The notes below the pieces were generated by a model. It was not told the DNA's origin and searched no databases. It was given only the letters and a program-made list of their open reading frames with translations. From Hyphomicrobiales bacterium (GTDB taxonomy: Bacteria; Pseudomonadota; Alphaproteobacteria; Rhizobiales; Devosiaceae), in NCBI GenBank assembly GCA_900470445.1, contig UCAU01000002.1:1-64000 (forward strand): a stretch of DNA of 64,000 bases, read 5' to 3'. Both the position numbers and the translations under genes were made by a program. This document shows, piece after piece, positions 7,091-48,904 of this stretch; position 1 is the stretch's first letter; each line of letters begins with the position of its first letter.

Positions 7091-10000
7091 ATGGTTTTGC
7101 GGTGGCTTAAGGGGCTGGCTTCCGGCGGTCGCGCAGTGGGCGCTACTGCGTTTCTTGCGGGGCTGATGGGCCTGTCGGTCCCGGTGCTGGCGGCATCATC
7201 CGACTGTACTGCCATCAACAGCCAATGGTCCAATGTCACTCAGTCCGGCGGCCTGGAGAAGTACGAAGAGTATTACTCTCTGATGCCGGGTGAGCAGATC
7301 ACCTATTCGGCGTCGACCACGGGGAGCACGAACGGGGCCGGAGACCCCTTCAATGGCGGCGGCTTCGCGGTTTACCTCGGACCGGACTACCACCTGGGCT
7401 TGGAAGAATATGCCACCTCTGGAAACGAGGTGGTGGCCAGCGGTTCGGTCACCGTCGACAGCAGCGGTCAGGTAACCCTTTACGCCTGGAGCGGCGCCAG
7501 CGGAGCGACCGTGTCCGCCACTGTGGTGTGTGCGGTGCCAACGCCGCCAGCCGCAGTGGCGAGCGTATCGGTGCCCGCCGATGGCACCTATCGGATCGGC
7601 GAGACGCTTTCCTTCACCGTGAATTTGGACAACGTCGTTACGGTCACTGGAACTCCCAGGCTCGCATTGGTGGTGGGGTCGACCACGCGCTACGCGAACT
7701 TCGTTTCCGGCAGCGGATCATCGGCCCTGTTGTTCCAGTACATGGTCGTTTCAGGTGATTTGGATAGCAATGGCGTTTCGGTCGGACCGCTCTCGCTCAA
7801 TGGGGGAATGATACGCGATGGAGCGAGCAATGACGCCGTGCTGACGCTGAATAGCGTCGGCAGTACGGCGGCTGTCAGTGTGGATGGCGTAGCACCCGGC
7901 GTCACCGGCGTCAGCGTCAGCGGGACCCCTGCCGCCAACGCCAGTCCGGTGGTGTTCACGGCCGACTTTTCCGAGCCCGTTTCCGGGCTTTCAACCTCGC
8001 AATTCAGCGTCACGACGACAGGCACGGCCAGCGGGACGATAAGCGCCATTTCGGCCTCGTCCGGGTCGACTGTCGACGTGACGGTTTCCAGCATCAGCGG
8101 CCAGGGAACGCTGCGGCTGGACGTCAATGCCTCGTCGTCCGTCGTCGATTCCGCCGGAAATAGCCTGGCAACGGGTTTCACCGCGGGCGGCACGCATACG
8201 GTCGACATGAGGGCCGACCAGACAATTACCTTCAACAATCCCGGCGCGCAGAATTTCGGGACAACGCCGACGCTATCGGCGACGGCGAGTTCGGGTCTCG
8301 CTCCGACCTTCTCGTCGTCGACACCCGGGGTGTGTACCGTGACGGGCGGCGGAACACTCAGTTTCGTCACCGCCGGCGCCTGTACGATCGACGCCGACCA
8401 GGAGGGGGATGCCGCCTATCTCGCTGCGCCGACGGTCACCCAATCCTTCACGGTCAACGCTGACATCCCCGGGGCACCCTTGATCGGAACCGCGACGGCG
8501 GGGGTTGGGCAGGCCAGCGTGAGCTTCATGGCGCCCGCCTTCGATGGTGGGGCCGCCATTACCGGATATGCGGTGACGGCCAATCCGGGTGGCCTGACAG
8601 GTACCGGCATATCGAGCCCTATCCTGGTTACGGGGCTGACCAATGGCGTTGCCTACACCTTTACCGTGACGGCAACCAATTCGGCGGGGACCGGCGCAGC
8701 CTCATCCGCGTCGAATGCGGTGACGCCAGCTTCGCCGCAGACGATTACCTTCGCCACTCCGAGCGCACAGAACTTTGGTACGGCACCGACGCTGACCGCT
8801 ACCGCGAGTTCTGGGCTGACGGTAACCTTCAGCTCGAGCACGACGGGTGTGTGCACCATCACATCCGGCGGGCTTTTGACGACGATCTCGGCGGGAACCT
8901 GTACGGTCAATGCCGACCAGGCGGGCAATGGCACTTATCTAGCCGCAACCCAGGTCAGCCGCAGCTTTACCATAAACCCCATCGTTCCCGGAGCGCCAGG
9001 TGCGGTGGTGGCAACAGCAGGAGATACGCAGGCCTCGGTGGCGTTTTCCGCACCGGCGAGCAGCGGGGGCGCCAGCGTTACAGGCTATACGGTGATGGTG
9101 ACCCCGCCCGATGTTTCGCCCGCCAGCGGTGCCAGCAGCCCGATCGTGGTCACAGGATTGACTAATGGGCAGGCCTATACCTTCACGGTGACGGCGGATA
9201 ACGCCGCAGGCACCGGACCGGCCTCGGCTGCGTCCAGTTCCATCACCCCCAAGGCGGTGCAGACGATTACCTTCTCCAATCCGGGGGTGCAGGATTTCGG
9301 CACCACGCCAACCCTTGAAGCCACGTCGGATTCCGGCCTGCCCGTGACCTTTACGTCCAGCACGACCGGCGTTTGCACCATCACATCAAGCGGGGGGCTG
9401 ACATTCGTGTCGACGGGCACGTGCACGATCAATGCCGACCAGGCGGGCGATGCCAGCTATCTGCCCGCCACGCAGGTCTCCCGGAGTTTTGCGGTGAGTG
9501 GCGTGCTGCCAGGCGCACCCACAGGGGTGAGCGCCCTCGCCGGCAGCAGCATGGCCACGGTCAGCTTCACCGTGCCCGCTGACACCGGCGGGTCCTCCAT
9601 TCTGGACTACACGGTGACCGCCAGCCCCGGCGGCGCGACGGCAGCAGGAACCTCCAGCCCGATCGTCGTCGGCGGCCTCATCAATGGTGTGATCTATACC
9701 TTCACCGTGACGGCGCGCAATTCCAGCGGGACCGGCACGACCTCGGCCGTGTCGGCACCGGTAGTGCCCGGGACGGCGCAGACGATCACATTCGCCAACC
9801 CGGGCCCGCAGGTCCTGGGCACTTCGGTGACGTTGTCCGCCTCCGCGACATCAGGGTTGTCCGTCCACCTTGCGAGCACCACGTTAGCCATCTGCACTGT
9901 TACGGCCGGGGGCACGCTGACCCCGGTATCGACCGGCACCTGCACCATCGAGGCGAGCCAGGCGGGGGACAGCACTTATCTGCCCGCCGCGCCGGTTCAG

Positions 10001-11608
10001 CAGAGCTTTGTCATTGGTTCGACCGCGGTGACAGTGGTGCCGGCAAGCGGAGCATTGCCCGATGCGATGGCCGGGGAAGGCTATTCGGCACAATTCATCG
10101 CCTCGGGCCAATCCGGAACTGTGCTTTGGTCAATATCGACAGGCACCCTGCCAGCGGGCATGGTGCTCAACGCGTCGACTGGCGAACTGACCGGACCGAT
10201 CGATGCTGGCGCAGAGGGCGCCTTCAGCTTCACCGTGGCCGCCACCGATCAGGCCGGGGGTGGATCGGGGAGCGCGAACATGACGCTCAAGGTCCTGACG
10301 CGTGCGGTAGCTGCCGAGAACAAGGAAGTCACGGTGCCGCCCGGTGCCACGCCGCCACCGATCAACCTGGTCGAGAACGCCACCGGCGGTCCCTTCACCG
10401 CCGCAGCCGTTGCGGGCGTGGAGCCAGCCATTGGCGGTACCGCCGAGATCATCATGGGCCTCGTTTCGGCGATCGAAACCGACTATCCGGGCAGTTTCTA
10501 CCTCCAGTTCACACCCAACCCGCAATATTCGGGTACGGTCGTGGTCACCTACACCCTGACCAGTGCACTGGGCACATCCGACCCGGCGACGGTGACCATC
10601 CACACCAGCGTCGATACGGTGGCTGTAGAGGACCTGTTTTCCGATCTGTCACGGGGATTCATCACCGCGCGCGGCAATCTGCTGGCCGGAGCCATCGAGA
10701 CTCCGGGGCTGCGCGAGCGGCGCGGCCAGGCGGGTGCGTCGGCTCCGGGCACTATCAACGCAATTCCTGGCGGCAACTCAGTGACCATGAGTTTCGCCTC
10801 GAGCAGCTTGCAGATCGCGGCTTTCGAGGCGATGGACGGGCTGGTGGCCGATGCGGTCGATACCGGTGGAGTGAACTTCTGGATCGACGGAACGGCAACC
10901 CTGCACGTGCGCGGCGGCAATGATAGCGATTATTGGGGCTCGTTCTCCCTGCTCTCGGCGGGCGCCGACGTGCTGGTCAACCAAGACCTCCTCGTGGGCG
11001 TGGTGAATCATGCCGACTGGATGGAGGACAGCAGCAGTTCGAGCAGTGTGACGGGACAGGGTTTCCTGGTGGGGCCCTATGTGTCGGCGGAACCGGTCGA
11101 TGGCGTGTTCCTCGATGCAAGCGTTCTCTACGGGCGGAGCTGGAATGACGCATCGACGCAGATATTCCAGGGCACGTTCGACACGGAGCGGCTGATTGGC
11201 CAGGTCAGGCTGGAGGGGACCTGGGATCTCGGCGACGGACTCAGCTTCCGGCCCTTTGCAAAGCTGTTCTATCTGCGGGAGGAGATGGAGAGCTATGTCG
11301 TCGATGATGGAGCCGGCAATACGGCGTTGGTACCGGGATTCCTCAGCGAGCAGTTGAAGCTCAGCGGCGGCGGCAGCCTGCATTTCGTGCTGGAGACCGA
11401 GAATGACCTAATAGTGCGCCCCTACCTGGGACTGCAACTCGGGCTTACAGTGGACGATGAGCAGGTTGGGCAATCGGCGGCGCTCAGCGGCGGCGTGGAT
11501 CTGACCGGCTTGGGAAGTTGGACGCTCGGTCTTCTTACCCAGGCTGACTTTGCCAGCGAGGGCTTCCGATCGATTTCCGCACGAGCACGGTTTGGCCTTT
11601 CCTTCTAG
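7091..11608 (+). CDS. Autotransporter with Ig-like and fibronectin type III passenger repeats
   Basis: Predicted surface protein of 1505 residues (ATG at 7091; a TTG at 7067 is in frame but less likely). A signal peptide ends in VPVLA-ASS near residue 34. The passenger holds two Ig-like units with cadherin/adhesin character. Four repeats then begin QTITF near bases 8220, 8740, 9262 and 9780. Fn3 domains (start PGAP, core YTFTVTA.N..GTG) alternate with them, and a putative-Ig module follows near 10030-10300. The last ~270 residues form an autotransporter beta-barrel ending ARFGLSF, with the C-terminal aromatic expected of outer-membrane barrels. Role inferred: type Va secreted adhesin or surface-layer component. 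The repeats are alike at DNA level, indicating recent duplication. Confidence 0.85.
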   Translation: MVLRWLKGLASGGRAVGATAFLAGLMGLSVPVLAASSDCTAINSQWSNVTQSGGLEKYEEYYSLMPGEQITYSASTTGSTNGAGDPFNGGGFAVYLGPDYHLGLEEYATSGNEVVASGSVTVDSSGQVTLYAWSGASGATVSATVVCAVPTPPAAVASVSVPADGTYRIGETLSFTVNLDNVVTVTGTPRLALVVGSTTRYANFVSGSGSSALLFQYMVVSGDLDSNGVSVGPLSLNGGMIRDGASNDAVLTLNSVGSTAAVSVDGVAPGVTGVSVSGTPAANASPVVFTADFSEPVSGLSTSQFSVTTTGTASGTISAISASSGSTVDVTVSSISGQGTLRLDVNASSSVVDSAGNSLATGFTAGGTHTVDMRADQTITFNNPGAQNFGTTPTLSATASSGLAPTFSSSTPGVCTVTGGGTLSFVTAGACTIDADQEGDAAYLAAPTVTQSFTVNADIPGAPLIGTATAGVGQASVSFMAPAFDGGAAITGYAVTANPGGLTGTGISSPILVTGLTNGVAYTFTVTATNSAGTGAASSASNAVTPASPQTITFATPSAQNFGTAPTLTATASSGLTVTFSSSTTGVCTITSGGLLTTISAGTCTVNADQAGNGTYLAATQVSRSFTINPIVPGAPGAVVATAGDTQASVAFSAPASSGGASVTGYTVMVTPPDVSPASGASSPIVVTGLTNGQAYTFTVTADNAAGTGPASAASSSITPKAVQTITFSNPGVQDFGTTPTLEATSDSGLPVTFTSSTTGVCTITSSGGLTFVSTGTCTINADQAGDASYLPATQVSRSFAVSGVLPGAPTGVSALAGSSMATVSFTVPADTGGSSILDYTVTASPGGATAAGTSSPIVVGGLINGVIYTFTVTARNSSGTGTTSAVSAPVVPGTAQTITFANPGPQVLGTSVTLSASATSGLSVHLASTTLAICTVTAGGTLTPVSTGTCTIEASQAGDSTYLPAAPVQQSFVIGSTAVTVVPASGALPDAMAGEGYSAQFIASGQSGTVLWSISTGTLPAGMVLNASTGELTGPIDAGAEGAFSFTVAATDQAGGGSGSANMTLKVLTRAVAAENKEVTVPPGATPPPINLVENATGGPFTAAAVAGVEPAIGGTAEIIMGLVSAIETDYPGSFYLQFTPNPQYSGTVVVTYTLTSALGTSDPATVTIHTSVDTVAVEDLFSDLSRGFITARGNLLAGAIETPGLRERRGQAGASAPGTINAIPGGNSVTMSFASSSLQIAAFEAMDGLVADAVDTGGVNFWIDGTATLHVRGGNDSDYWGSFSLLSAGADVLVNQDLLVGVVNHADWMEDSSSSSSVTGQGFLVGPYVSAEPVDGVFLDASVLYGRSWNDASTQIFQGTFDTERLIGQVRLEGTWDLGDGLSFRPFAKLFYLREEMESYVVDDGAGNTALVPGFLSEQLKLSGGGSLHFVLETENDLIVRPYLGLQLGLTVDDEQVGQSAALSGGVDLTGLGSWTLGLLTQADFASEGFRSISARARFGLSF

Positions 11609-21432: not shown

Positions 21433-24400
21433 ATGTCGTTTTTCCGTGCGCTGCACCTGCTGGTGCAAGCTGCAGGCGTGTGCCTGTCGTTTGACCGACG
21501 CGCCGAATGGCAATGGAAACGCCGCGCTGCAGCGAAGGAAACCTGGCGTAAGCAACGTCCGCTCGGCATCTTCAGCGCTGTCTTATTGGGCTCACTTATC
21601 TTAGTATCGGCGGTTCAGGCGCAAACAACCGGCGGTTGGACGCTGAATATCGACAACACTGGCTTCAACCCTATCCCAGCTGGCGCGCTGCTGCCCTATT
21701 CGATCCGCATCGATAACAATGACAACGTGGCGACGCCAGCGACGACGATCACCTTCACCATTCCCGCAAGTGCGGATTTCCTCGATGTCACTGGCGGGCT
21801 AACCAATTGCGTGGCTGACCCCGCGGCCGGGCAGCCGGCAACAGTCACCTGCGATGTACCAGTATTGGCGCCCAGTGCCATCCTCAACGCCACGGTCAAC
21901 TTGCGCCCCCGGGAGCAGGGCACGATTTCCCTCACCGGCACCATGGCCAGTCCGGGCCCGACCTTCAGCCGCCAGACCACCGTGCAAAGGGGCGCTGATC
22001 TTTCGGTCGCGCTCGTCGCCGACCCTGCAACAGTCCAAGGGGGCTCTGTCGCTCACTTCAGTGCGACGGTTACCAATGCCGGACCATACCCGTCGGACAA
22101 TGCTACGCTGGTGGTGTCCCTGCCTGTAGGGCTATCCACCGATGTCTCAATGCCTGCTGGCTGCTCGATCGCCGGCCGCGACATCACCTGCGTCATCGCC
22201 GGGCCCATTGGGATTGGCGCATCTATTCCGCTGGACTTCTCGGCTCAAGTTACCGCCTCCAATGCGTCCACGATCACGCTGGCCGCCGAGGTGAATTCAA
22301 CCTCGCCGCGCGACGGGGTGAACGACAATGACGGCGCCACGGCCGACATCAATGTTACCCCGGGCACGGATGTCAGCATCGGCAAGACCCGTGCGCCTCA
22401 GGGGCTGATCCTTGTTGGCGATACGGTTACCTTCACCCTTGAGCCACGATTTGTGGGCGTAGCTCCCACTTCAGCCGGCATTCAAGACGTCGTGCCGTCG
22501 AACTATTCGATCGACAGCGTTGTTCCCACGCCGGGTTCTGGATGGACGTGTCCGGCGCCGGCGGGCCAGACGATCAATTGCAGCTACGCTGCCGGGGGCG
22601 GCACGAACTACACCGCGCCGATCACCATCACGGCGACGGCCATCGACGCCACGTCGCCAACTGTCGGTGTCACGAATACGGCGAGCATCAACTCCCCCAA
22701 CGAGAACGCCGATGCAGGCGGCAACAATTCGGGTAATGACGGCGCTGCTTTCATCGCTGTGCCCACCATCGATCTCAATGCGGAGAAAAGTGGCCCGCCG
22801 CGTGGATTGGTGACCGTCGGCAATTCCTATGATTTCCGCCTTTATACGTTCAATGAAGGCAATGCTGGCTTCTTCGGGCCACTTACCATTACTGATCATC
22901 TTCCGGCAGGATTGACGCTTACATCGGCAGCTCTGCCAGGCGGCTGGAGCTGTTCGCCGGCGCTGCCACTGGTCGGCGGACCGGGCGCCGATTTCACCTG
23001 CGTCACCAACAACTACACTGAATCCTCGCCGCTGGGGCCGACGCAGCGGACGCCGGACCTCGTCCTGACCGCCGAAGTGACTGCGCCCGGCGCGATCTCA
23101 AACTCCATGACGGTGTCCTTCCCGAACTGGGATCAGGGCGGAGATATAGACCCCTCGAACAATACCACCGGAATTGGCCTGACTGGCGCTGACAACGCGA
23201 ACTGGGCCGATTTAAGCGTCCTGAAGACGATGACCGCGCCAAGCCCGATAAACTCGGGCGACCAGGTCACCTTCGAGATGGAATTGGTCAACATAGGACC
23301 GGCACCAGCTCTCAATGTCGTCTTGGATGATCGGTTGAACGATATCGTCGCCGCCGGTGGGGGCGAGCCGGGCCCAAGCGATGTGACGGTGGTCACGTCG
23401 CCGGGCGTCGCCACGGGAATGGCTTGCGTAGTCCCGACCAGCAGCGGCTATTCGCGCGATCTGCAGTGCACGGTCGATGCGCTGCCCATGTGTACGCAGG
23501 GTGTTGACTGCCCCAAGGTATCCGTCACGGTTCGCACCGGCAGCCAGGGTGCCAAGACCAACACCGCAACCGCCTTTTCAACGGTCACGCCGGATAACGA
23601 CACCGCCAACAACACCGACAGCGTCAACTACGCCGTGGTCTCGCGCACCGACGTGACGGTCGCCAAGTCCAGCCCGGCATCCTCTACGGGCGCCAACGCC
23701 GGGCAGGAATTGATCTATGTGCTGACAGCGGGCGTGCCGCTGAACGGCCTCAGCGATGCTGACAACGTGACCATCGTCGACACTTTACCGGCTGGCGTGG
23801 TGTTCAAGAGCGCCGCGCCGAGCAGTGGCTCCTGCTCTGTCCTGCCGGGCGTTGACACAATAACCGGTCCCGGCAACAACACGATCACCTGCAACCTTGG
23901 CACCATAACCAACGGTTCCCAGCAGACCGTCTCGGTGCGCGTGGTTCCAACGACTGCTCAGGCTATTGCCGGCGTCCCCATAAATAACGTCGTCGACGTC
24001 ACCACCACCACCGACGAGACCGGCGGTGCGGCACCCAATCACGCCGAACTGTCGCTCAGCGTGCTGCCGCCGGAGCTGGACCTGATTATCAGCATCGTCG
24101 ATGCTCCCGATCCGATACCGGTCGCCACGGACACGACCTACACCATCACCATCCGCAATAGCGGACCGTCCGATGCGTTCAATCTTGATGTGCTCGATAC
24201 GCTGCCGACGACCGGCCTTGCCAATCCGCGCATCGTCTCATTTCCGCCTGGTGCCAACTGCGTTTTGAACGGTACTAGCGCTACCGTGCCCGGTGGCACC
24301 ATGAGCTGCGAAATTCCAACTCTGGCAGCCAACACTCAGGTGCAAATCACAGTTGCCATGGAAGGGGTGGCGCGCGGGCGCCACACCAACAATGTCTCGG

Positions 24401-27400
24401 TGACTTCAGACGAAACGGTCGCGGGCTTCGAGAGCCCCACCGACAATAACGCGTCCTATGAAGACACCACCGTACGCGAACGTGCCGACCTTCTGGTGAC
24501 CAAGGTTCCCAGCGCGGCTATCGTTGATTTGCGCGAGGAGTTCAGCTGGACTATCACTGTGACCAACCAGGCCGGTGCTGGCCTGGGCGTCGCCGAATGG
24601 GTGACCCTGACCGACATGCTGCCCGAAGGCATGGAGCTGACCCAATTGCCAGTGGCGTCGGTGGGTACTTGCTCAGGCGTCGTAGGCGGACGCAACATTT
24701 CCTGCGAGCTCGGGGATATGGCCTCGGGCGCTGTGGCCACGGTGACGCTCTCGACCAAGATCACCTCGACCATTGCCGCCTCTGCCGAAAACTCGGCCAC
24801 TGCCAATACGCTGTCGTTCGAGCAAAACCCGCCGAACAATACCGGCACCGGACAGGTTACCACAGTCCAGGCGAGCAGCATCAGCGGCACGCTCTACCGC
24901 GACTTCAACAGCAATGACACAAGGGGCGCCGAAGACACCGGCATCAGCGGCATCACCATGTCGGTGACCGGCACCGCGACCCACGACGGCGCTGCCATCA
25001 CCGCGACGACCACCACCGGTAGCGACGGCAGCTACAGCTTCGCCACCCTACCGCCCGGAACCTACAGCGTCTCCTATGGCACGATAAGCGAGCCGCACCT
25101 GGTCGACGGCAAGGCTCTGCCGGGGCCCAACGGGTCGGGCGCTAACCCGACAGCGAACGGGGTCGGCAGGATCGACGGCATCGTCATCACCAACTCGTTT
25201 TTCTCGGTGGGCCAGGACTTCACGCGCGTTCCTGTTCCCCGGATTGGCCTGAGCAAGACAGCCGGCATCATAGCTGTGCAGCCCGATGGCAGCTACTTCA
25301 TCCCCTATACGGTGACGGTCAAGAATCTCAGCCTTGAGCCGGTCAACACCATCGCCGTCACCGATGTGCTGGATGGTGCATCGCAGAACTTCGGCGCCTA
25401 TAGCGGCGGCGGTGCTCCTGCCGAAGGGCAGTATCGTATCGCTTCGGTCTCAGGCGGCGCATTTGGAACCCTGAACACGGGCTTTACCGGAGCTGGTGCC
25501 AATACGCTGGTTTCCGGGGGAACCCTGGCGGCGGGCGCCAGCGGCACGGTCACATATACGGTGCATATCAATCCAGCGATTCCACGGATCGTGCCGTCCC
25601 CTGTGCACACCAACCAGGCCAGCGTGGCAGGTACCGGGCAGAACTCGGGAACGCCGGTAACGGACCTTTCGCACAACAATTCGAATCCCGACCCGGACAA
25701 TAACGGTATTGCCAACGAGCCCGGCAACAACACGCCGACCACGGTTTCGCAGACCCCCGCGCCAGCCGTCACGTTGGTCAAGACCGCTACGCCCGCGTAT
25801 AGCGGAGCACCAACTGTCGGAGGCCGCATCGACTACAGCTTCACGGTCACTAACACCGGCAACACACCGCTGCTGAACGTGCTGGTAACTGACCCGCTAC
25901 CCGGCCTGGTGGGTTTGAGCACAACCCCCATCCCTCGACTTGATCCTGGCCAATCCGATAGCACCACCTTCACCGCCCATTACCTGCTCACTCAAGCCGA
26001 CATCGACAGTGGTTCGCGGTCAAATACGGCCTCAGTGTCCGGCCAGTGGGGCATTAATGGTGGCACGGCGCAAAATGTGAGCGCAAGCAGCACTGCAAAC
26101 GTTCCGGCGCTGAGCGATCCCGAGCTGACGCTCGTAAAGGAATTGGAATCGGCCGTCGACATCGGCAATCCGCGCACCGAGGTGGGTGATGTGGTCCGCT
26201 ATCGGTTTAAGGTCACCAATACCGGCAACACCACGCTCACCAGCGTGACGGTGGCAGATGCCTTGCCGGGCGTTGCTCCGGACCCGGTCAATGCCTTTAA
26301 TATCGGCACGCTCGCCCCGGGGGCTGAGACCACTGTTTACGCCAACTATCCGGTCACGCAGGCGGATATCGACGCTGCCACGGTGCAAAACAGCGCAACC
26401 GCAAGCGCACTGCATGGTTCCACCCCGATCAGCACGCCGCCGAGCACGGTCGCGACTCCGCTTTTCCGGCAGTCGAGCCTAACGCTGACAAAGACGTTGG
26501 CCAGCACCATTCCGCCAGTGCCGCGCGAAGGCACACCTGTCACTTGGACAGTAAGGGCGACCAACACAGGCAATGTGACGCTGAGTAGTCTCGTCGTCAC
26601 CGACCCATTCCCCAATGCTGTCGTCTCGCCGACGTCGCTGGCTAGTCTCGCCCCCGGTGCATCAGCTGACTTCAGCGTAGTAGCGCCGCTGCGCCAACAG
26701 GACATCGACGCCGGCACAGTCAACAATACCGCCACCATCAACTTCAACGATCCAGCCGGCCCGAAGACACCGGTTGACGCAAGTGCGATCGTCACTCTGC
26801 CGCCGCAGACGCCTGCCATCGCGCTACAGAAGACGGGCGACGTGTCGGCGCTAACGAACCCACCCCAGGTGGGCCAGGAAATCGTCTACACGATTATTAT
26901 CCGCAACACCGGCAACGTGCCGCTGGACGAGATAACACTGGCCGATCTGCTGCCCGATGTCGTGATTGACGCTGCTGATGTGACTAGGCTGAGCACGGCC
27001 GTTCTGCAGCCGCAGAATGACGCAGGCACGGCCACCGATACCGACATCACGGTCACAGTGCGCTATGCGCTCAAGCAATCGGATGTCGACGCCGGCGAGG
27101 TGGAGAACACCGCCATAACGACAGGTAAATCGACTGTCGATGACACTCTCGTTACGGACCAGGGCGGAACGGACTTTGGCACCAATGATCCGACGGTGAC
27201 CAGCCTGTCGCAGGCACCGCAGATCAGTCTCGTCAAGACCATTGCTAGCGCTGCCTTGAGTTCTCCGCCGCAAAAGGACGACCTGATCACCTACGCGTTT
27301 TCGGTTCAGAACACCGGCAACGTGACGCTGAACAACATCCAGCTCACCGATCTTATGCCCGATGTGCTGGTTTCCGGCAGTTGGACAGGTCCACTGGCGC

Positions 27401-29691
27401 CAGGTGCCAGCAACGACACCGCCTTCACTGCCACCTACGCCCTCAAGCAAGCCGACATTGATGCGGGCACATTTGCCAATTCGGCGCGGGTCGATGCCAC
27501 GGGTCCTGGTCCCGGTGGTACGGACATCCCAGTTTCCGACATCTCGGGGACTGCCATCGGCAACGACGATACGACCGACCTGGGCCCGCTCACACGCACC
27601 ACGGCGCTCACCATCGTGAAATCGGCTGATGACTCCAATCTAAGCACGCCACCACAAGCCGGCGAGGAGATCACCTATACCTTTGTCGTGACCAACACCG
27701 GCAACCAGACGCTGACCAATGTCGTCGTCGCCGATCCATTACCGGATCTCGTCCTGACATCCCCGAACACGATTCCGACCTTACTGCCCGGTACTGCCAA
27801 CGCGGTTACTATTTCGGCGACCTACGTACTTAAGCAGTCCGACATCCAGGCCGGCGAAGTTCGAAACCAGGCCACTGCTAGCTTTGAAAACCCGGACGGC
27901 CCGCAGCCACCTGTGCTCTCCAATGAGATCGTGGTGCCCCTGGACCAGACGCCATCAATTGCGGTGGTGAAAACGGCCTCGTCCGCTCTGAGCGAACCGG
28001 CGGTCGTGGGTGAGGTGATTACCTACACCTTTACGGTGACCAATACGGGCAATCTCACGCTCGATAATGTCGAAATCAGTGATCCTCTGCCTCGACTTAC
28101 ACCCAGTTCCTTCGCTGTGGGCACGCTTTTGCCGGGCGAGAGCTCGGCCCCACTCACCGCCACCTATGCGATCGATGCGGCGGACGTAACGGCCGAGGAG
28201 GTTGTGAATCAGGCCGTTGCCACGGGCACCTTTAACGATGGCTCCGGCCCGCAGCAGATTACGGATCTCTCCGGACCTACCAACGATACCGACCAGCCGA
28301 TCACTGTTCCTGTGGTCAAGGCAGAGCCCAGCCTTGCCATCGCCAAGACCGCAAGCTTTGCCAATGGAGGCGGCTATACGCGTGTCGGCGACGTCATCGA
28401 TTACCAGTTTGTCGTCACCAACACAGGCAACGTGCCGCTCACCAATGTCACGCCGCGCGAGCTTGCCTTGACGTTCAACGGCCAGCCGCCAGCAGGCGAA
28501 CTCGATCCAATCCAGCCGGGGCCAGTTCCGCTGGCCGTGGGCGAAGAGGCCACATTCAACACCCGCTATGTACTGACACAGGACGACATCAATAACGCCG
28601 CGGGCATTGCCAATGGTGTCAGCAACACTGCCGATGCGACTGGCGTGTACACGTCTGCCCTGGTTGGCGTGCTGGCCGTCGAGGCGGAAGATGACACGGC
28701 CACCTTGATGGTGCCCGCGCAGGAGCCCGCCGACATCACCATCGCCAAGCGGGCGCTGGTTTCCACCATCCGGCGTGGTGAGACTGCGTCTTTCGTCATC
28801 ACTGTGACCAACAGTTCGCTGGCCGATGTCGGGCTTGTAACGATCGCCGATCGGGTTCCCGCGGGCTTTGTCTTCGTCGAAGGGACTGCGACTGTGAATG
28901 CGGCTCCGGTCACCCCTACGGTTGCCGGGCCAGTCGTCACCTTCTCCGACGTGCCGTTGGGGCCCAATAGCAGCGTCGAAATCGGCCTTGTGCTACGCGC
29001 TCTACCGACGACCCCGCCCGGAAACTACCGGAACACGGCCTATGGAACCGACGCCTTTGGGACGCCATTGGCGCCCCCCGCACATGCCGATATCCGCATC
29101 GATCCCGAGGCGATCTTCGATTGCAGCGAGGTGATCGGCAAGGTCTTCAGCGATCTTGATCGCGATGGCTACCAGGACGAAGGCGAACCGGGCATTGCTG
29201 GCGCAAGGCTGGCGACCGTCCGCGGCACTTTGATCACCACGGACGCTTTCGGACGCTTCTCGGTGCCGTGCGCCGACCTGCCAGACGGCAATATCGGCTC
29301 GAACTTCGTGCTGAAATTGGACGAGCGCACGTTGCCCGCCGGCTTCTCGATGACTACGGACAATCCGGCCATGGTCCGACTCACCGCGGGCAAGATGACC
29401 GAAATGAACTTTGGCGCCTCGATCGGTCGCGAAATCCGCCTCACCCTCGACAACTCCGCTTTCGTCGGTGGCTCTGAGGTTCCGACGGCAGCGCTCGATG
29501 ACGGCATCAGGCAACTGATGACGCTCCTAACCGATCACACGACGACGCTCTACATCGCCTATGGCGGCGAGGCGGGGGATGATCTCGGTCGCCAGCGCGT
29601 CGAGCATGTCATCGCTTTGATACGCCAGCAGTGGCGGCAAGCGGGCGAGCCGTATCGGCTCGTCATCAACACCGATCCGATGGAGCGTTGA
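21433..29691 (+). CDS. Giant DUF11-repeat surface protein (2752 residues)
   Basis: A ~43-residue basic extension precedes a hydrophobic signal segment (LGIFSAVLLGSLILVSAVQA, to residue 63), an unusually long export signal. About 17 DUF11-type beta-sandwich repeats follow, each opening with a strand like L.L.K and a core VTNTGN. Eight of the later ones (from near bases 25765, 26118, 26473, 26815, 27218, 27601, 27954, 28329) share the Y-x-L-x-Q-x-D-I-D-A-G signature at ~115-135-residue spacing. Two SdrD B-like units (near 24886 and 29134) interrupt or end the array. The last ~85 residues (RLTLDNSAFVGGS...DDGIRQLM...LIRQQW) resemble a degenerate OmpA-like domain. Inferred role: long extracellular or periplasmic fibre, working with the coupled beta-barrel gene. 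Confidence 0.85.
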   Translation: MSFFRALHLLVQAAGVCLSFDRRAEWQWKRRAAAKETWRKQRPLGIFSAVLLGSLILVSAVQAQTTGGWTLNIDNTGFNPIPAGALLPYSIRIDNNDNVATPATTITFTIPASADFLDVTGGLTNCVADPAAGQPATVTCDVPVLAPSAILNATVNLRPREQGTISLTGTMASPGPTFSRQTTVQRGADLSVALVADPATVQGGSVAHFSATVTNAGPYPSDNATLVVSLPVGLSTDVSMPAGCSIAGRDITCVIAGPIGIGASIPLDFSAQVTASNASTITLAAEVNSTSPRDGVNDNDGATADINVTPGTDVSIGKTRAPQGLILVGDTVTFTLEPRFVGVAPTSAGIQDVVPSNYSIDSVVPTPGSGWTCPAPAGQTINCSYAAGGGTNYTAPITITATAIDATSPTVGVTNTASINSPNENADAGGNNSGNDGAAFIAVPTIDLNAEKSGPPRGLVTVGNSYDFRLYTFNEGNAGFFGPLTITDHLPAGLTLTSAALPGGWSCSPALPLVGGPGADFTCVTNNYTESSPLGPTQRTPDLVLTAEVTAPGAISNSMTVSFPNWDQGGDIDPSNNTTGIGLTGADNANWADLSVLKTMTAPSPINSGDQVTFEMELVNIGPAPALNVVLDDRLNDIVAAGGGEPGPSDVTVVTSPGVATGMACVVPTSSGYSRDLQCTVDALPMCTQGVDCPKVSVTVRTGSQGAKTNTATAFSTVTPDNDTANNTDSVNYAVVSRTDVTVAKSSPASSTGANAGQELIYVLTAGVPLNGLSDADNVTIVDTLPAGVVFKSAAPSSGSCSVLPGVDTITGPGNNTITCNLGTITNGSQQTVSVRVVPTTAQAIAGVPINNVVDVTTTTDETGGAAPNHAELSLSVLPPELDLIISIVDAPDPIPVATDTTYTITIRNSGPSDAFNLDVLDTLPTTGLANPRIVSFPPGANCVLNGTSATVPGGTMSCEIPTLAANTQVQITVAMEGVARGRHTNNVSVTSDETVAGFESPTDNNASYEDTTVRERADLLVTKVPSAAIVDLREEFSWTITVTNQAGAGLGVAEWVTLTDMLPEGMELTQLPVASVGTCSGVVGGRNISCELGDMASGAVATVTLSTKITSTIAASAENSATANTLSFEQNPPNNTGTGQVTTVQASSISGTLYRDFNSNDTRGAEDTGISGITMSVTGTATHDGAAITATTTTGSDGSYSFATLPPGTYSVSYGTISEPHLVDGKALPGPNGSGANPTANGVGRIDGIVITNSFFSVGQDFTRVPVPRIGLSKTAGIIAVQPDGSYFIPYTVTVKNLSLEPVNTIAVTDVLDGASQNFGAYSGGGAPAEGQYRIASVSGGAFGTLNTGFTGAGANTLVSGGTLAAGASGTVTYTVHINPAIPRIVPSPVHTNQASVAGTGQNSGTPVTDLSHNNSNPDPDNNGIANEPGNNTPTTVSQTPAPAVTLVKTATPAYSGAPTVGGRIDYSFTVTNTGNTPLLNVLVTDPLPGLVGLSTTPIPRLDPGQSDSTTFTAHYLLTQADIDSGSRSNTASVSGQWGINGGTAQNVSASSTANVPALSDPELTLVKELESAVDIGNPRTEVGDVVRYRFKVTNTGNTTLTSVTVADALPGVAPDPVNAFNIGTLAPGAETTVYANYPVTQADIDAATVQNSATASALHGSTPISTPPSTVATPLFRQSSLTLTKTLASTIPPVPREGTPVTWTVRATNTGNVTLSSLVVTDPFPNAVVSPTSLASLAPGASADFSVVAPLRQQDIDAGTVNNTATINFNDPAGPKTPVDASAIVTLPPQTPAIALQKTGDVSALTNPPQVGQEIVYTIIIRNTGNVPLDEITLADLLPDVVIDAADVTRLSTAVLQPQNDAGTATDTDITVTVRYALKQSDVDAGEVENTAITTGKSTVDDTLVTDQGGTDFGTNDPTVTSLSQAPQISLVKTIASAALSSPPQKDDLITYAFSVQNTGNVTLNNIQLTDLMPDVLVSGSWTGPLAPGASNDTAFTATYALKQADIDAGTFANSARVDATGPGPGGTDIPVSDISGTAIGNDDTTDLGPLTRTTALTIVKSADDSNLSTPPQAGEEITYTFVVTNTGNQTLTNVVVADPLPDLVLTSPNTIPTLLPGTANAVTISATYVLKQSDIQAGEVRNQATASFENPDGPQPPVLSNEIVVPLDQTPSIAVVKTASSALSEPAVVGEVITYTFTVTNTGNLTLDNVEISDPLPRLTPSSFAVGTLLPGESSAPLTATYAIDAADVTAEEVVNQAVATGTFNDGSGPQQITDLSGPTNDTDQPITVPVVKAEPSLAIAKTASFANGGGYTRVGDVIDYQFVVTNTGNVPLTNVTPRELALTFNGQPPAGELDPIQPGPVPLAVGEEATFNTRYVLTQDDINNAAGIANGVSNTADATGVYTSALVGVLAVEAEDDTATLMVPAQEPADITIAKRALVSTIRRGETASFVITVTNSSLADVGLVTIADRVPAGFVFVEGTATVNAAPVTPTVAGPVVTFSDVPLGPNSSVEIGLVLRALPTTPPGNYRNTAYGTDAFGTPLAPPAHADIRIDPEAIFDCSEVIGKVFSDLDRDGYQDEGEPGIAGARLATVRGTLITTDAFGRFSVPCADLPDGNIGSNFVLKLDERTLPAGFSMTTDNPAMVRLTAGKMTEMNFGASIGREIRLTLDNSAFVGGSEVPTAALDDGIRQLMTLLTDHTTTLYIAYGGEAGDDLGRQRVEHVIALIRQQWRQAGEPYRLVINTDPMER

Positions 29692-29694
29692 GCC

Positions 29695-32600
29695 ATGAAT
29701 TTCACAACTCTTCGCGCCGCAATGATGACTGCCTGCTCGGCTCTGGCCATTGGGCTGGCAACGCCCGCCTTCGCGCAAATGGGCTTTTCCATCGCCGTCG
29801 ACGGCATGCACGTTTCCGGTGATCCAATCGCGCCCGACCACAAGCGCCAGACCGATACGGCATTGGCCCGCACCGACATCCAGGTCACGTTCGATGGCCT
29901 GGATGCGGCGCCGAGCTTGAATGTGCTGCCTGCGGACCGACGCTCGGTCTATCGGGCTGGTGAGCCGGTGAGGTTCGTGATCGATACCAACTACGCGGCA
30001 TGGATCGAGCGCGCTGAGGTTCGTCTCTATGACGCCAGCAGCGATGATCTGCTGGCGGTCCTGCCGGGGCAGCCCGGCAAAGAGCTCTTGTGGTCGATGC
30101 CCGCTAATACGGGTGCGGAGTTCTATTATGTGGCTCGCGTCTATGATCGCGACGGTCGCTTTGACGAAACACTCGCGCTGCCGTTGACGCGCAGCGAACT
30201 CAGTGCCCCGTCAACCAAAGACCTACCGGTTTGGGGCGATGACCGCACCGCCTTACGCAACATCTCGGTGTACGGCGGCACGGTTACGGTGCATGGCACG
30301 AACCTGCCGGCCGGCGGGAGCGTGCGCTTTCTGGGCGAGAGTGTGCCCGTGGATGCCAGCGGGGCCTTCGTGGCCAAGCGCATTCTTCCCTCTGGCGACC
30401 ACACTATCGAGATCGCCGTCGATGACCCGGATGGGGATGTCGTCGTCTTCAATCGCGACATCAATATTCCTTCCGAGGAGTGGTTTTATGTCGGCATGGC
30501 AGACCTGACGGTCGGCAAGCGATGGGGCGACGGCAGGATCATTGCGGCCAATCCCGAGGAATTCGACGGCATCTATGCAAAAGGTCGCGCCGCTTTTTAT
30601 CTCAAGGGCAAGATCAAAGGCGAATATCTGCTGACGGCCTCGGGCGACACAGGGGAGGGGCCGCTCAATGAAATGTTCAGTGGCATGCTTTCCACCGATC
30701 CACAGGCCCTGCTGCGGCGCATCGACCCTGACGAATACTACCCCGTCTACGGCGACGATTCCGTGCTGGTCGACGATGCCCCTACTCGGGGCAAGCTCTA
30801 TGTCCGGCTCGAGCGCGGTCCCAGCAACGTCATGTGGGGCAATTTCCGCACTGTGGTGGGCGATAGCGAGCTACTGCGCCGCGAGCGCGTGCTGTATGGG
30901 GCTTCTGCTCGGCTTGAATCGGATGCCGTAACAGCCCAAGGCGCCCCAATTTACGAAGCCAATGTCTACGCGGCCCAACCTGGAACCCTTCCGGCACGTG
31001 ATGTGCTACGTGGCACTGGCGGCTCGGCCTATGTGTTGCGCCGGCAGGACATCGTTGCCGGATCTGAAACGATCACCATCGAGCGGCGCAACGCCATCAC
31101 AGGCCTCGTTGTTTCGACCACGACACTACGCGCAGGTGTCGATTACACGATCAACTATATGCAGGGTGTCATCATCCTTGCTCGACCGCTCAGTTCCACC
31201 CAGCGCTCCGAGGGGGCGGTGCAGTCCTCCAGCGACGATGTCGTGAATCTGGTAGTGCAATACGAATTCAGCCCACCGAATGCGGACCTGGACGAGTTTG
31301 CCTTTGGTGGCAGCGGCACGATCCGGCTGAACGATGCTGTCACAGTGGGCGCCGTCGGTATGACCGAGACGATGGAGGACGAAAGCGACTTGCGCGTCTA
31401 TGGCGCTAATATTCGCGTTGCCCCCACCGAGGACACCTTCATCGAGGCCGAGATTTTGCGCAGCGAGGGCAGGGCGCTGTCGAGCTGGGTCTCCACTGAT
31501 GGCGGGCTCACCTACGTGCAGCAGGCCGCTGTGGCGGCCGATTCAGACGCCTATGCCTATCGGCTTCATGGCCAGGCCGATATTGATGACTTCTTCGAAG
31601 GCACTTTCGACGCGATTGCAGGCTTTACACTCGAAGGCCGGGAGGCGGGGTTCTCGACGGGCGAACTACAGACGCAGCACAACACCTTAATCTTCAACGG
31701 CTTTATCGACGCCCAGATCAACGACCATCTGGCGCTGGCGCTCGATTATGATCGCATCAGCAACGAAACGGGGGCTCGCCGCGACGAGCTAGGGGCCGAG
31801 CTGAGCTACACGCTCAACGATGACTGGACTGTCAGCGTGGGCGTGCTGCATCGGGACGAGACCCGCCCGGGCGGGCTTGCCAAGGACAATGGCAGCCGCA
31901 CCGACGTTGGCGCGCGCGTGACCTATAGTCCGACCGATGATCTTTCCGTTTTCGCCTTCGGCCAGGCGACGCTGGCGCACACGGCCGGCTATGGTCGCAA
32001 CGATCGGCTGGGCGTTGGTGCAGATCTCAAGCTCGGCGTCGATTGGGCCCTGTTCGGGGAAGTATCGACTGGCTCTACGGGGCCGCAGGCGCTTGCGGGG
32101 ATCAGCCATGAATCTGAGCCCGGAAGGCGCACCTATCTCGGCGTGCGCGTCAGCCCCGAGGCCCAGGAGGATCTGTTTTCCGACCACCAGGCTAAGAGCG
32201 GGCTCGTCCTCGGGTCCGAGCAGCGGATCAACGACGCCCTTACGGTGCACGCCGAAAACAATTACGGCTTGTTCTCCGAAGCGGGATCAACCACTGCCCT
32301 TTACGGCGTGAAGTTCACGCCCGACAAGTTCTGGACCGGTTCGGGCACCTACGAGACCGGCCGTATCCGGGATGACGACGCCTCAGACTTCGAGCGGCAT
32401 GCGGTCTCTGTGGGCCTTGGCTACAAGGACGAGGGGATCGAGTGGAGCGGCCGAGGCGAGTTGCGGGTGGAAGACTCGGCCGATGGCACGCGGGATCGCA
32501 CCACCGCACTGCTGCAGTCTGGGCTTTCGGTCAAGACTGCCGACGACTGGCGCATCCTTGCCGGCATCGACGGCCTGTTCAGCCGCTCCGACCAGAGTAC

Positions 32601-33135
32601 CATACTTGATGGGGACTATGTCGAAGCCAGCGTTGGAGCTGCCTATCGCCCAGTAGACAATGACCGGCTGAACGCGCTTTTCCGCTACACGTACCTCTAT
32701 GATTTGCCGGGGCCTGATCAGGTGTCACGAGGCGGTTCGGTATTGGGCCCGGCACAGCGCAGCCACATCCTGAGCGTCGATGCCAACTACGACCTCACGC
32801 AGTTCCTGACAGTCGGCGCGAAATATGGCGTGCGTATCGGGGAGACATCGGAAACGCGTAAGAGCAACGACTTTATCGCCTCGACCGTGCATCTTGGTGT
32901 GCTGCGTGCCGATCTCAGTGTACTCGAAGACTGGGGTTTGCTGCTGGAGGGGCGCATGCTTTACAATACGCAGACTAGCATCTCCGATTTTGGCGTTCTT
33001 GCGGCTGTGTCCTACGACATCACCAAGGAGCTCCGAACGACCGTCGGCTACAATTTCGGCCAATTCTCTGATGACCTAAGTGATCTGACCTATGATGATC
33101 ATGGCGTCTTTTTCAACATGGCCGCCAAGTTTTGA
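29695..33135 (+). CDS. Large outer-membrane beta-barrel protein, partner of the DUF11 giant
   Basis: 1146 residues. The signal peptide is MNFTTLRAAMMTACSALAIG...ATPAFA-QMG (27 residues). Residues ~28-260 form periplasmic beta domains (FVIDTNYAAWIERAEVRLYD; GGTVTVHGTNLPAGGSVRFL). From ~262 there is a long series of amphipathic strands, starting FYVGMADLTVGKRWGDGRI and including DPDEYYPVYGDDSV and LYVRLERGPSNVMWGNFRT. The protein ends VFFNMAAKF, with the C-terminal aromatic required for BAM-dependent barrel insertion. The gene starts 3 nt after the giant gene. From family memory, this barrel type recurs directly behind DUF11 giants in proteobacteria. Export or anchoring of the fibre is inferred. 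Confidence 0.8.
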   Translation: MNFTTLRAAMMTACSALAIGLATPAFAQMGFSIAVDGMHVSGDPIAPDHKRQTDTALARTDIQVTFDGLDAAPSLNVLPADRRSVYRAGEPVRFVIDTNYAAWIERAEVRLYDASSDDLLAVLPGQPGKELLWSMPANTGAEFYYVARVYDRDGRFDETLALPLTRSELSAPSTKDLPVWGDDRTALRNISVYGGTVTVHGTNLPAGGSVRFLGESVPVDASGAFVAKRILPSGDHTIEIAVDDPDGDVVVFNRDINIPSEEWFYVGMADLTVGKRWGDGRIIAANPEEFDGIYAKGRAAFYLKGKIKGEYLLTASGDTGEGPLNEMFSGMLSTDPQALLRRIDPDEYYPVYGDDSVLVDDAPTRGKLYVRLERGPSNVMWGNFRTVVGDSELLRRERVLYGASARLESDAVTAQGAPIYEANVYAAQPGTLPARDVLRGTGGSAYVLRRQDIVAGSETITIERRNAITGLVVSTTTLRAGVDYTINYMQGVIILARPLSSTQRSEGAVQSSSDDVVNLVVQYEFSPPNADLDEFAFGGSGTIRLNDAVTVGAVGMTETMEDESDLRVYGANIRVAPTEDTFIEAEILRSEGRALSSWVSTDGGLTYVQQAAVAADSDAYAYRLHGQADIDDFFEGTFDAIAGFTLEGREAGFSTGELQTQHNTLIFNGFIDAQINDHLALALDYDRISNETGARRDELGAELSYTLNDDWTVSVGVLHRDETRPGGLAKDNGSRTDVGARVTYSPTDDLSVFAFGQATLAHTAGYGRNDRLGVGADLKLGVDWALFGEVSTGSTGPQALAGISHESEPGRRTYLGVRVSPEAQEDLFSDHQAKSGLVLGSEQRINDALTVHAENNYGLFSEAGSTTALYGVKFTPDKFWTGSGTYETGRIRDDDASDFERHAVSVGLGYKDEGIEWSGRGELRVEDSADGTRDRTTALLQSGLSVKTADDWRILAGIDGLFSRSDQSTILDGDYVEASVGAAYRPVDNDRLNALFRYTYLYDLPGPDQVSRGGSVLGPAQRSHILSVDANYDLTQFLTVGAKYGVRIGETSETRKSNDFIASTVHLGVLRADLSVLEDWGLLLEGRMLYNTQTSISDFGVLAAVSYDITKELRTTVGYNFGQFSDDLSDLTYDDHGVFFNMAAKF

Positions 33136-33361
33136 GCTGACGAGGCGCCAAGCGGCCGTTGAGACGCGCCCCACCGCGATTTCTCCCGGTGGAGAGTGGC
33201 AACATTGCGAATAGAACGACGGCGTGGCGTATTTCCCCCGACGTCACAAGGACGTTGGTGGTTTCCGCGACCGGCGATGCCGGAAAGCGCTTTAGTGGGG
33301 GCCGCGGCCATGTTCCGCAGGTCTTACCGACATTAGAATCGCCTGCTCAAAGGAGTTATGC

Positions 33362-34099
33362 ATGCGGATGCCGAGTTGGATCGTGGTCACGGCGACATTG
33401 GGTCTTATGTGTGCGCCCGCTCTTGCCCAGGCATTGCCGCTGCCCGGCGAGCCCGAAATTCCCGAGGACTACGCCACTCTCCTCTGCCAAGATGTTGCGG
33501 GCGGCCAGGACGTCCTAGCCAATTATCTGGCTCCGGGCGAGCACTCCATCGATACGACCATTTTTCTCGAGGGGCTCAAGTTAAACGACTGCTTCTATAA
33601 GCAGGATCGGGTTGGTCCGATTGAGATCGAGAGCGTGATCGAGCGCCGTGTAGCGCAGCCCGGTCAAACTTATATCCTTTATCGCGGCACGATGGCGAAC
33701 GGCACAGACGTCGTCGGTATCCTGCATGAGGAAGGATACGATGCCTATCCGCGCACTGAATTCCAGCAATTCCTGGCCGAAAGTACGCGGGACGGCGTCG
33801 TTTCGGTGAGCGAAGGCGAGCGTGGCGCTTATATTTGCGCCTCGACCGAAGCGTCGATGGCTGTGTTGGACTCCATTGGCCAGTCCGATGTCCCCGATGA
33901 GCAATTTGCTGCTCTGGATCGGGCGCTCGATACCTATGGCTGCGTGGCAGCCATAGGCGAATTCCGGATCACCGAACGACATGGCGATGCCTATATTGCT
34001 GGCGGTTACGAGGCTGATGAAATCTGGACCGCCCTGACGGCAATCGACCAGAGCGGGAAAACGGTGAGCCTCCTCTATGACGCCAGCCCGTTCCGCTAA
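33362..34099 (+). CDS. Secreted protein of unknown function behind the surface-protein pair
   Basis: 245 residues with a signal peptide (MRMPSWIVVTATLGLMCAPALAQA). AAGGAG 6 nt before the ATG at 33362 fixes the start over the overlapping ATG at 33358. The mature part has four cysteines, possibly two disulphides (LLCQDV, NDCFYK, AYICAS, YGCVAA), fitting a periplasmic or secreted protein. I do not recognise a family. It lies 226 bases after the barrel gene on the same strand and is closed by a strong hairpin, so it may have its own promoter or belong to the same unit. Confidence 0.65.
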   Translation: MRMPSWIVVTATLGLMCAPALAQALPLPGEPEIPEDYATLLCQDVAGGQDVLANYLAPGEHSIDTTIFLEGLKLNDCFYKQDRVGPIEIESVIERRVAQPGQTYILYRGTMANGTDVVGILHEEGYDAYPRTEFQQFLAESTRDGVVSVSEGERGAYICASTEASMAVLDSIGQSDVPDEQFAALDRALDTYGCVAAIGEFRITERHGDAYIAGGYEADEIWTALTAIDQSGKTVSLLYDASPFR

Positions 34100-46286: not shown

Positions 46287-48203
46287 CTACCTGCGAGCCT
46301 CAAACCTGTTTTGCCCAACGCTGTCTCTCATATCTGCGCGGCGGAACCAGATAGCGCGCCCGCATCGCAGCGGCGGGTTGCCGGCTGTGAATACGATCTG
46401 TTCATCCGCGCGCATGCGGAGCACCTCGTGGGGCAAGATCAGGGCCCGGCGCGTTAGTTGCTTGGATCGAGTCCGTGACGAGCCGGACATTTGTGCACTC
46501 TGGCTCAACTGATCGACCTCCACTGTAGTTTCGCCGCAGCGCCTGGAAATGTAGTCGGCTGTTTCGGGATCATTGACCGCGGCAAAGGAAATCCAAGAGG
46601 CGCTTTCGAACCATTTGCTGGCCGCGTCCCGCCCGCCATAGGCCTCACGCATCTGCCCAATCGACTGGAACAGCAATAGGAGTGTGATGCCGTATTTGCG
46701 GCCGGCGTCGCGTGCCGTTTCAAGAATGCGCAGATAGCCAAGTCGCGCGACTTCATCGAGCAGGAACAGGGTCCGCCCCCGCACGGGGCCATGGCGATTG
46801 TAGAGAGCATTCATCAATGCGCCAATGATAACGCGGGCCAGACCGGGATGGGTTTCGAGCGTTTTGAGGTCAAGGTTGACAAAGATGTCGATGTTTCCAT
46901 CGGCCAACTCGTCCGTGGTGAAGCTGTCCCCTGACACCAGAGCGGCATAATTGGGGTAGGATAGCCAATGGGTTTCCTTTACCGCATTGGCATAGACGCC
47001 GGAGAAGGTTTCGGGCGTCATGGCAATAAAGGGCGCCACGTTCTCCTTCACAAACTCGGATGCCGACCTGTCGTAGATGGCTTGCAACCGCTCGCGCAAT
47101 TTTGGCTCCGGCTCCGCCAGATTGGCGCGAACCTGGCGCAAATGCTGGTCTGATTTTTGAGTATGGCCGGACAGACATACATCGGCCAGCAGCGCAGTCA
47201 CCAATTGCAGCGCCGAAGCGCGAAAGAAGTCGTCGCGGGCAGAACCCTGGCGCGGATTGTCGGTAACGATCCAGGCGGCGATTGCGACGATGTCCTCTTC
47301 CTTAGTGCCACCAAACTGGCCTACCCAGTCCAGCACGTTGAACCCAATTTCAGGCGACTTTGAATCGATCATGAAAAGGCTGCGGCCGGCTGCCTGTCTG
47401 TGATCAGACACCATCGGTCCAACTTCATTGGACGGATCGAGCACGACAAGGCTACCTCTCCATTTCAGCGCCGTGGGCACCGTGACCGACGTGGTTTTGA
47501 AGCCGCCGGAACCCGCAAAGACGATACCGTGCGAGGAGCCGAACGACCCATCAAAACAGAGCAGGGGGGTTGCACCGCCCTTGCCCCAGCTCCGCTTGTC
47601 ATCGGTGCGAAATGCACGCTCGGCAATGCTGTCTTGGTCGACACGGTAGCGCTCGCCAATGACGATGCCACCAGTACACGGAAACAGCCGAGCCGCTTGG
47701 CCGGTGCGCATCCAGGAGGCTTCGCCATATATCGCACGTCTACCCTGGACGCGCCTCGGCGTAGCTGCTGCGAATGCAGCATTCCCGCGGAGCGCGACCC
47801 GCATCGCAAATATGCCGCACAATGCTGAGGTCATGCCGCCGAGCAGGGTCGCAGGATCGGTAAAGTCCAGGACGCCCCGGCCCGGAGCAATCTGATGGGC
47901 AAATGACAACAATCTCGAGGACTCCCGCCACACCGCTATTGCTGTAACGATCATTGCGCCGATGACGGCGCCATATGCCGCGCTGCGGATCGCTATCGCG
48001 CCCTTGGCGGCAAACAGAAAAGCCACGCCAATGATGCCTCCGGCCATGTAGGGCAGGGCAATGCCAATTCGACCCAACATTATTGTGGCAGCCGCCGATG
48101 GGCCGAAGGTAGATAGCCCCGTTTCAATGCCGCTTAGCCCGAGACAAGTGCCCACCATCAAGGCGATGGGCGCGACCATCAGCAGCAGTCTATTCGGGGT
48201 CAT
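46287..48203 (-). CDS. traG: Type IV coupling protein TraG (Ti-type, VirD4 family)
   Basis: 638 residues from ATG 48203. The membrane-bound ATPase links the relaxosome to the mating channel. Four or so N-terminal hydrophobic segments (to about 150) are followed by the VirD4/TraG domain. Walker A is [15 protein letters not shown] (P-loop with GFKTTS), Walker [12 protein letters not shown], and the motif [15 protein letters not shown] region ([17 protein letters not shown]) is present. Its start overlaps traD by 14 nt and the order traC-traD-traG is that of Ti plasmids. It looks intact. No trb channel genes are in the window. Confidence 0.93.
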
Positions 48204-48405: not shown

Positions 48406-48415
48406 GCGCTTAAAC

Positions 48416-48661: not shown

Positions 48662-48797
48662 TGCAGCTGTCTTTCTCGTCGCATGGCTGTTTGCGATGGA
48701 CAAAAACACCTGGTTACGCGTAGCGCATCCCACCAAATCTGGTAGGTCGGCAGCGCCGACGCTTCTTGAGATTATCCCGCCGTTCCGAAGGAATGGT

Positions 48798-48831: not shown

Positions 48832-48904
48832 TCCCTTTGCGGCCCGACCTGCTTGGCCATCCCGACGAACACTGCCGCTTGTTCTTTGTCGGGATCAGTT
48901 CGCC

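Follow-up and report, generated by a model that had tools for sequence, protein, structure and literature searches.

A giant DUF11-repeat protein and a predicted outer-membrane barrel form a conserved gene pair in Pseudomonadota and may constitute a two-partner adhesin

We describe a pair of adjacent genes in a 64,000-nucleotide stretch of DNA (hereafter the window: positions 1 to 64,000 of contig UCAU01000002.1, 91,506 bases in full, GenBank assembly GCA_900470445.1) from a Hyphomicrobiales bacterium of the Devosiaceae. The first gene encodes a giant protein of 2752 amino acids (aa) with DUF11-type repeats and the second a predicted outer-membrane barrel protein of 1146 aa; together they are a real, conserved two-gene unit with coupled inheritance. 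We think it rather probable that the two make up a giant adhesin of two partners, in which the fibre would leave the cell by way of the barrel and remain seated in it. That the two genes work as a unit is much more certain than that the fibre passes through the barrel lumen. On the simplest reading, the barrel is likely the missing export and anchor partner of DUF11 stalks, and a role as a fibre for adhesion, which agrees with published work on such stalks, is likewise likely.

The giant open reading frame (ORF) (21433..29691; this and all features of the pair lie on the + strand) begins with a predicted signal peptide (about aa 1-63), and the repeat stalk follows thereafter. Pfam recognises DUF11 (E 1.7e-115), DUF7507 (E 7.2e-169), and two SdrD_B stretches in the protein, while a profile made from its own repeats detects 18 of them (E 0.012 for the weakest), in agreement with the roughly 17 repeats and two SdrD_B-like units counted in an earlier note on this DNA. 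There are two repeat blocks, with limits set by hand: eight DUF11-type repeats with a cysteine pair in each (four cysteines in one) at 21670..24876 (aa 80-1148), and, after a first SdrD_B unit named by Pfam (24880..25080, aa 1150-1216), ten DUF7507/DUF11-type repeats without cysteine at 25240..29106 (aa 1270-2558). The protein closes with a conserved C-terminal SdrD_B unit (29107..29418, aa 2559-2662), two cysteines of which are invariant in 29 of 29 sequences, and a terminal domain (29419..29688, aa 2663-2752) for which a beta-alpha-beta-alpha-beta order is predicted, a topology weakly like that of OmpA. Three nucleotides separate the giant's stop from the ATG of the barrel gene (29695..33135), whose product has a signal peptide (about aa 1-27), predicted Ig-like domains ahead of strand 1 (29875..30468, aa 61-258) that are presumably periplasmic, and a predicted barrel (30472..33132, aa 260-1146) ending in Phe, with a small all-beta insert between strands 8 and 9 (31015..31230, aa 441-512) that is plug-like in position. 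In the AlphaFold2 model, the barrel spans from about residue 260 to the end and the Ig-like region before it is nearly all beta. The spacing, the predicted barrel, and the C-terminal aromatic residue are as the earlier note described them.

Giant and barrel genes occur together at every taxonomic level that we searched. In the family, 11 of 136 genomes carry the barrel, and at the loci read all 10 intact barrels have a giant immediately upstream (that of Devosia neptuniae being interrupted near its end); decayed or fragmentary copies lie at three further places in Devosiaceae (L038, L039, and L040, in genomes G052, G062, and G026). At order level, we ran both the giant's end and the barrel against one set of 297 genomes, with matches in 22 and 20 of them, respectively, and all 16 genomes with a strong giant match (E < 1e-40) also have the barrel. 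The exceptions are a broken barrel only in G052, a marginal match to the barrel only in G533, weak matches to both in G556 and G534, and a weak match to the giant only in G586, G613, G738, and G791. The barrel is the next gene in 15 of the 18 stretches around giant matches, lies within a single ORF in two, and is missing in one, where the giant match is a weak match to SdrD_B. At class level, 12 of 385 genomes match, and the 13 loci read comprise four split pairs, five single ORFs, three barrels without an adjoining giant, and one fragment; at phylum level, where 46 of 299 genomes match, the 16 loci read (14 genomes) hold 12 split pairs, three fused genes, and one barrel without a giant. Starting instead from the barrel, we scanned named genomes and kept the best 80 of 543 loci, 6 of which had too little upstream sequence; among the remaining 74, the giant's conserved end is found upstream on the same strand in 66. 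The giant's stop is at most 375 nt from the barrel homology in 63 of these and 1.1-1.2 kb away in 3, and the stop and start of the two genes overlap by 4 nt in 38 of the 66. In Pelagibacterium (L036), two short giants of 704 and 657 aa stand in tandem ahead of one barrel.

The two proteins also diverge together and are sometimes one. Across 95 of the 136 loci, those with full-length parts, distances in the giant's end correlate with distances in the barrel parts at r 0.72-0.79, a value inflated by close relatives, and a Mantel test of the terminal domain against the barrel's N-terminal domains gave 0 of 999. A second, diverged pair is present in the same genome on contig C25 (L009, 735-9349), where a 1656-aa DUF11 giant stands before a barrel that shares 46% identity with the window's. 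In genome G543, a single ORF (L116) encodes DUF11 repeats, then the SdrD_B unit and the terminal domain, and continues directly into the mature barrel, and because no signal peptide lies between the giant part and the barrel part, a mere sequencing slip over two genes is unlikely. Looser single-ORF relatives, in which the barrel is only partly recognised, are L067 (4545 aa), L069-L072, L117, and L179-L181, with the domain order DUF11, SdrD_B, OmpA, OmpA, barrel in L179. Conserved adjacency, coupled inheritance, natural fusions, and the paralogous pair argue that giant and barrel are dedicated to each other, as had been supposed from the window alone. Ahead of the fused genes L069-L071 and L179-L181 lies a gene whose product, 352-393 aa long and signal-like at its N-terminus, may be a separate fibre subunit; of two such proteins scanned, one contains DUF11 and the other has no Pfam match.

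The unit also occurs on plasmids: 25 of 72,556 records in a plasmid collection match. We read 21 of them, mostly as stretches reaching 3 kb to each side and two of them bearing no annotation, and the giant's end is upstream in 20 of the 20 that hold most of the barrel, one of these giants being broken near its end and another a 203-aa remnant behind IS elements. The same locus as in the window lies on a 532,786-base plasmid of D. neptuniae A18/4-1 (L030/L182), where the barrel is 99% identical, the giant is interrupted toward its 3' end, and a small gene is annotated between the two; the window's giant is intact. The window's flanks partly match this plasmid at 97-98% (27% and 35% of two stretches tested), and about 13 kb from the pair, at 46290-52210, is a conjugation region with a TraG-type coupling protein and a MobA/TraA-type relaxase-helicase. 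The match of the locus, the flank matches, and the conjugation genes suggest that the window's locus, too, is probably plasmid-borne. Among the other records, three roseobacter plasmids (L183, L193, and L198) carry giants of 6107-6458 aa by annotated coordinates, and on pSG53 the giant gene occupies about a third of the plasmid. Plasmid p4 of Acinetobacter haemolyticus (L202) encodes a 2008-aa protein of the DUF11-SdrD_B-barrel type, behind which come genes for an OmpA protein and for a further DUF11 protein, and on an Eleftheria terrae plasmid (L185) response-regulator, FecR, and CHASE2 genes stand before the pair.

The junction between the two proteins suggests where the giant might be held. 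Its C-terminal SdrD_B unit has the highest mean identity among the parts compared (70%, 95 pairs), and the best conserved stretch of the barrel protein, aa 259-512, includes the plug-like insert. Relatives have OmpA domains of the peptidoglycan type at the giant-barrel junction, and the OmpA profile matches at the same place as the terminal domain in giants L171-L173, L175, and L201; these domains suggest that the giant's C-terminus would be periplasmic. The same domains, together with single-chain relatives that have few repeats (1673-2205 aa), could also speak for a giant that is periplasmic throughout and links the outer membrane to peptidoglycan. We regard this as quite improbable, since stalks of at least 18 domains would, from their length and the usual size of such domains, be several times longer than the periplasm is wide, giants range from 657 to 6458 aa between relatives, and PF18651, which we take to be the CshA_NR2 adhesive domain, occurs in 5 of 120 listed giants sharing the C-terminal end (Pfam names no N-terminal adhesive domain in the window's giant). 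At the opposite extreme, the giant could be released as matrix or surface-layer material, with the barrel merely its exit pore, which would suit those relatives without a peptidoglycan-type domain at the junction (giants L176 and L177 terminate with the SdrD_B unit). This we think very improbable: the cysteine-paired SdrD_B unit is the most conserved of the parts compared, and fusion L116 ties the giant's end to the barrel. Surface-layer formation, which the earlier note had raised beside adhesion, found no support.

The barrel itself has 2070 relatives at E <= 0.001 among 7995 scored, and a C-terminal Phe is shared by the window's barrel and 106 of 120 listed relatives. With no Pfam match above cut-off, the window's barrel protein matches no translocator family of Pfam. 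Pfam likewise finds neither plug nor TonB-dependent barrel domains, nor usher, SprA, or 12-strand autotransporter (types Va and Ve, PF03797 or IAT_beta) domains, in the window's barrel and seven relatives; one relative matches YadA_anchor below its cut-off. Many relatives bear the database name 'TonB-dependent receptor', and one relative, in Phyllobacterium sp. 628, sits next to exbB, exbD, a gene of the TonB family, and one for a siderophore-interacting protein, so the barrel might be imagined as an uptake transporter whose substrate the giant catches. The missing plug and TonB-dependent barrel domains, the nearly all-beta Ig-like region before the barrel, and the lack of any annotated exbB/exbD/tonB set in the other 20 plasmid stretches (mostly 3 kb to each side, two unannotated) leave this idea with scarcely any credit. 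A more serious alternative is that the barrel only holds the giant's C-terminal end and that the fibre crosses elsewhere, assisted by BAM or through a general secretion system. Conservation falls on the junction, which suits anchoring no less than export, and in the E. terrae plasmid type II secretion-like genes lie a few genes (a few kb) downstream of the pair. We nevertheless consider anchoring alone unlikely, because a barrel of the predicted size with a plug-like insert exceeds an anchor's needs and, E. terrae aside, the annotation of the other plasmid stretches (mostly 3 kb to each side, two unannotated) shows no secretion genes.

If the barrel both exports and anchors the giant, Sec would carry the two proteins to the periplasm and BAM would insert the barrel in the outer membrane, as its C-terminal Phe suggests. 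The repeats, most of them with a Lys-Asp-Asn triad, would cross the outer membrane via the barrel, gated by the plug-like insert. The giant's conserved end would be retained, with the SdrD_B unit and its invariant cysteine pair perhaps acting as a stopper inside the pore or beneath it; the OmpA-like domain at the terminus would remain in the periplasm, in the position held by true OmpA domains (peptidoglycan-binding type) in relatives. With about 4 nm per stalk domain, the outcome would be a stiff stalk of some 70-80 nm, N-terminus outermost, that could serve attachment or biofilm life.

Several observations weigh against export through, and anchoring in, the barrel. Giant and barrel are known here from sequence and models alone, and their places in the cell are deduced. 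The barrel model is of moderate quality (pLDDT 79, pTM 0.67), and the count of about 42 strands was made by hand from its DSSP line. The Lys-Asp-Asn isopeptide triad is seen in 14 of the 18 repeats with a pattern of our own, applied without a chance control; in two of the 14 the pattern picked a different Asp, the aligned Asp being there as well. Pfam does not recognise OmpA in aa 2650-2752 of the giant, and hhalign of the terminal domain against the OmpA profile (PF00691) gives a weak match (probability 22%, P 0.001). The earlier note proposed that the giant's last 90 residues bind the barrel's periplasmic domain, and co-variation lends this no support. The terminal domain shows no special link to the N-terminal domains of the barrel once aa 513-1146 are allowed for (partial r 0.07), barrel aa 513-1146 are tracked better by each of the two parts of the giant's end (0.44-0.49 given the N-terminal domains), and the SdrD_B unit has a modest link to barrel aa 259-512 (0.29). 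No chaperone or energy source was found among the neighbouring genes, the only place searched for one. Finally, 8 of the 74 named loci have a barrel without a giant. Six of these, from Chelativorans and Nitratireductor (L238, L239, L240, L242, L253, and L257), are orphans 1256-1350 aa long that look like one syntenic clade, all beside the same kind of divergent gene, whose product presumably resembles a biotin-dependent carboxylase; in the other two (L231 and L273) the upstream sequence is short or disturbed. More distant orphans are L062, L063, L066, and L169, and together the orphans show that a barrel can occur with no giant next to it. The expectation that neither gene would often stand alone therefore held for strong giants and for most barrels, but not for these orphans.

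The nearest working parallel to the pair appears to be CdrA in CdrB. CdrB-type barrels have 16 strands and POTRA domains and CdrA begins with a TPS domain, inverse autotransporters such as intimin and YeeJ are single chains in which a 12-strand barrel precedes the stalk, and FimD/PapC ushers have 24 strands. In Pseudomonas aeruginosa, according to passages of one account, the CdrB pore retains CdrA by its C-terminus (PMC7616799); as in the pair described here, there are two proteins and a long repeat adhesin whose C-terminus is in the partner barrel and whose N-terminus is outermost, both of these positions being deduced in our case (PMC7616799). Unlike in CdrA/CdrB, Pfam finds no POTRA domain in the barrel and no TPS domain in the adhesin of the window, nor POTRA in seven other barrels, and the partner is predicted to have about 42 strands; the window pair shares adjacent adhesin and barrel genes with type Vb two-partner secretion but lacks matches to the POTRA and TPS domains that mark it. 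Intimin and YeeJ, in the parts of the sources consulted, also combine an Ig-like stalk, an outer-membrane barrel, and a periplasmic peptidoglycan-binding domain, which is LysM there and OmpA in relatives of our pair (PMC5595812, PMC8286594); in our case it is the stalk that leads, mostly encoded by a gene of its own. The FimD/PapC ushers differ from the barrel in that the latter is predicted to have about 42 strands and has no usher domain by Pfam, one long polypeptide takes the place of polymerised subunits, and no chaperone gene is annotated in the loci read, a pilus chaperone being absent from the annotation of the plasmid stretches (mostly 3-kb flanks, two unannotated). SprA, the translocon of type 9 secretion, is described in the passages seen as a 36-strand barrel (PMC10994853), and like our barrel it is a very large single chain. 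The SprA structure 6h3j is among the Foldseek matches of the model (E 7.1e-6), but the TM-score is only 0.15 and the SprA Pfam domain is lacking.

On the side of the stalk, passages of a 2025 paper rename DUF11 as CLIPPER and show that it builds the stalks of fibrillar adhesins and contains an isopeptide bond between Lys and Asn, presumably formed with help from Asp; the structure comes from an Acinetobacter adhesin for which an OmpA-like anchoring domain is reported at the end (PMC12617251). In excerpts of a 2023 paper, DUF11 is the commonest stalk repeat of proteobacterial CshA_NR2-type adhesins, and OmpA-like anchors, found predominantly in Proteobacteria, are the usual anchor there (PMC10952558). 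Such adhesins (for example, A. silvestris B9T28_05395) share with our pair the DUF11 stalk, the Lys-Asp-Asn triad of the isopeptide bond, and, in some members, an OmpA-type C-terminal end (PMC12617251, PMC10952558); a difference is that the terminal domain of the window's giant is only OmpA-like. By term search, the main texts do not speak of a partner barrel (PMC12617251 has no occurrence of 'beta-barrel' or 'outer membrane', and PMC10952558 none of 'barrel' or 'outer membrane'), and we found no description of the giant-barrel pair in the open-licence literature, subscription journals and preprints lying outside that search. How DUF11 fibres cross the outer membrane is not explained in the passages of PMC10952558, and a dedicated barrel gene, which comes after the giant at 66 of the 74 named loci and is sometimes fused to it, makes this gap testable.

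With some hesitation, we suggest that these pairs might form an unnamed class of translocon in Pseudomonadota, in which a single-chain barrel of about 42 strands would export and hold one giant adhesin hardened by isopeptide bonds, with a cysteine-paired C-terminal stopper and an OmpA-type periplasmic anchor, in two-gene, fused, and plasmid forms. If so, a translocon barrel larger than SprA would be spread over the Pseudomonadota, and, should the strand count hold, it would to our knowledge be the largest single-chain barrel known. The database name 'TonB-dependent receptor' would then need correction for a large family.

Downstream of the pair, a third ORF (33362..34099, + strand, 245 aa) has the signal-like N-terminus and the cysteines that the earlier note saw in it. 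It is not part of the system: among the 136 loci tested, it is present in the window itself alone, and otherwise only in the same-species locus L030, outside those 136. The window's relaxase-helicase of the MobA/TraA type also scores to the Bep_C_terminal (BID) family. Upstream, at 7067-11608 on the + strand, the window encodes a 1513-aa protein with fn3 and Ig-type domains by Pfam, possibly a further surface protein.
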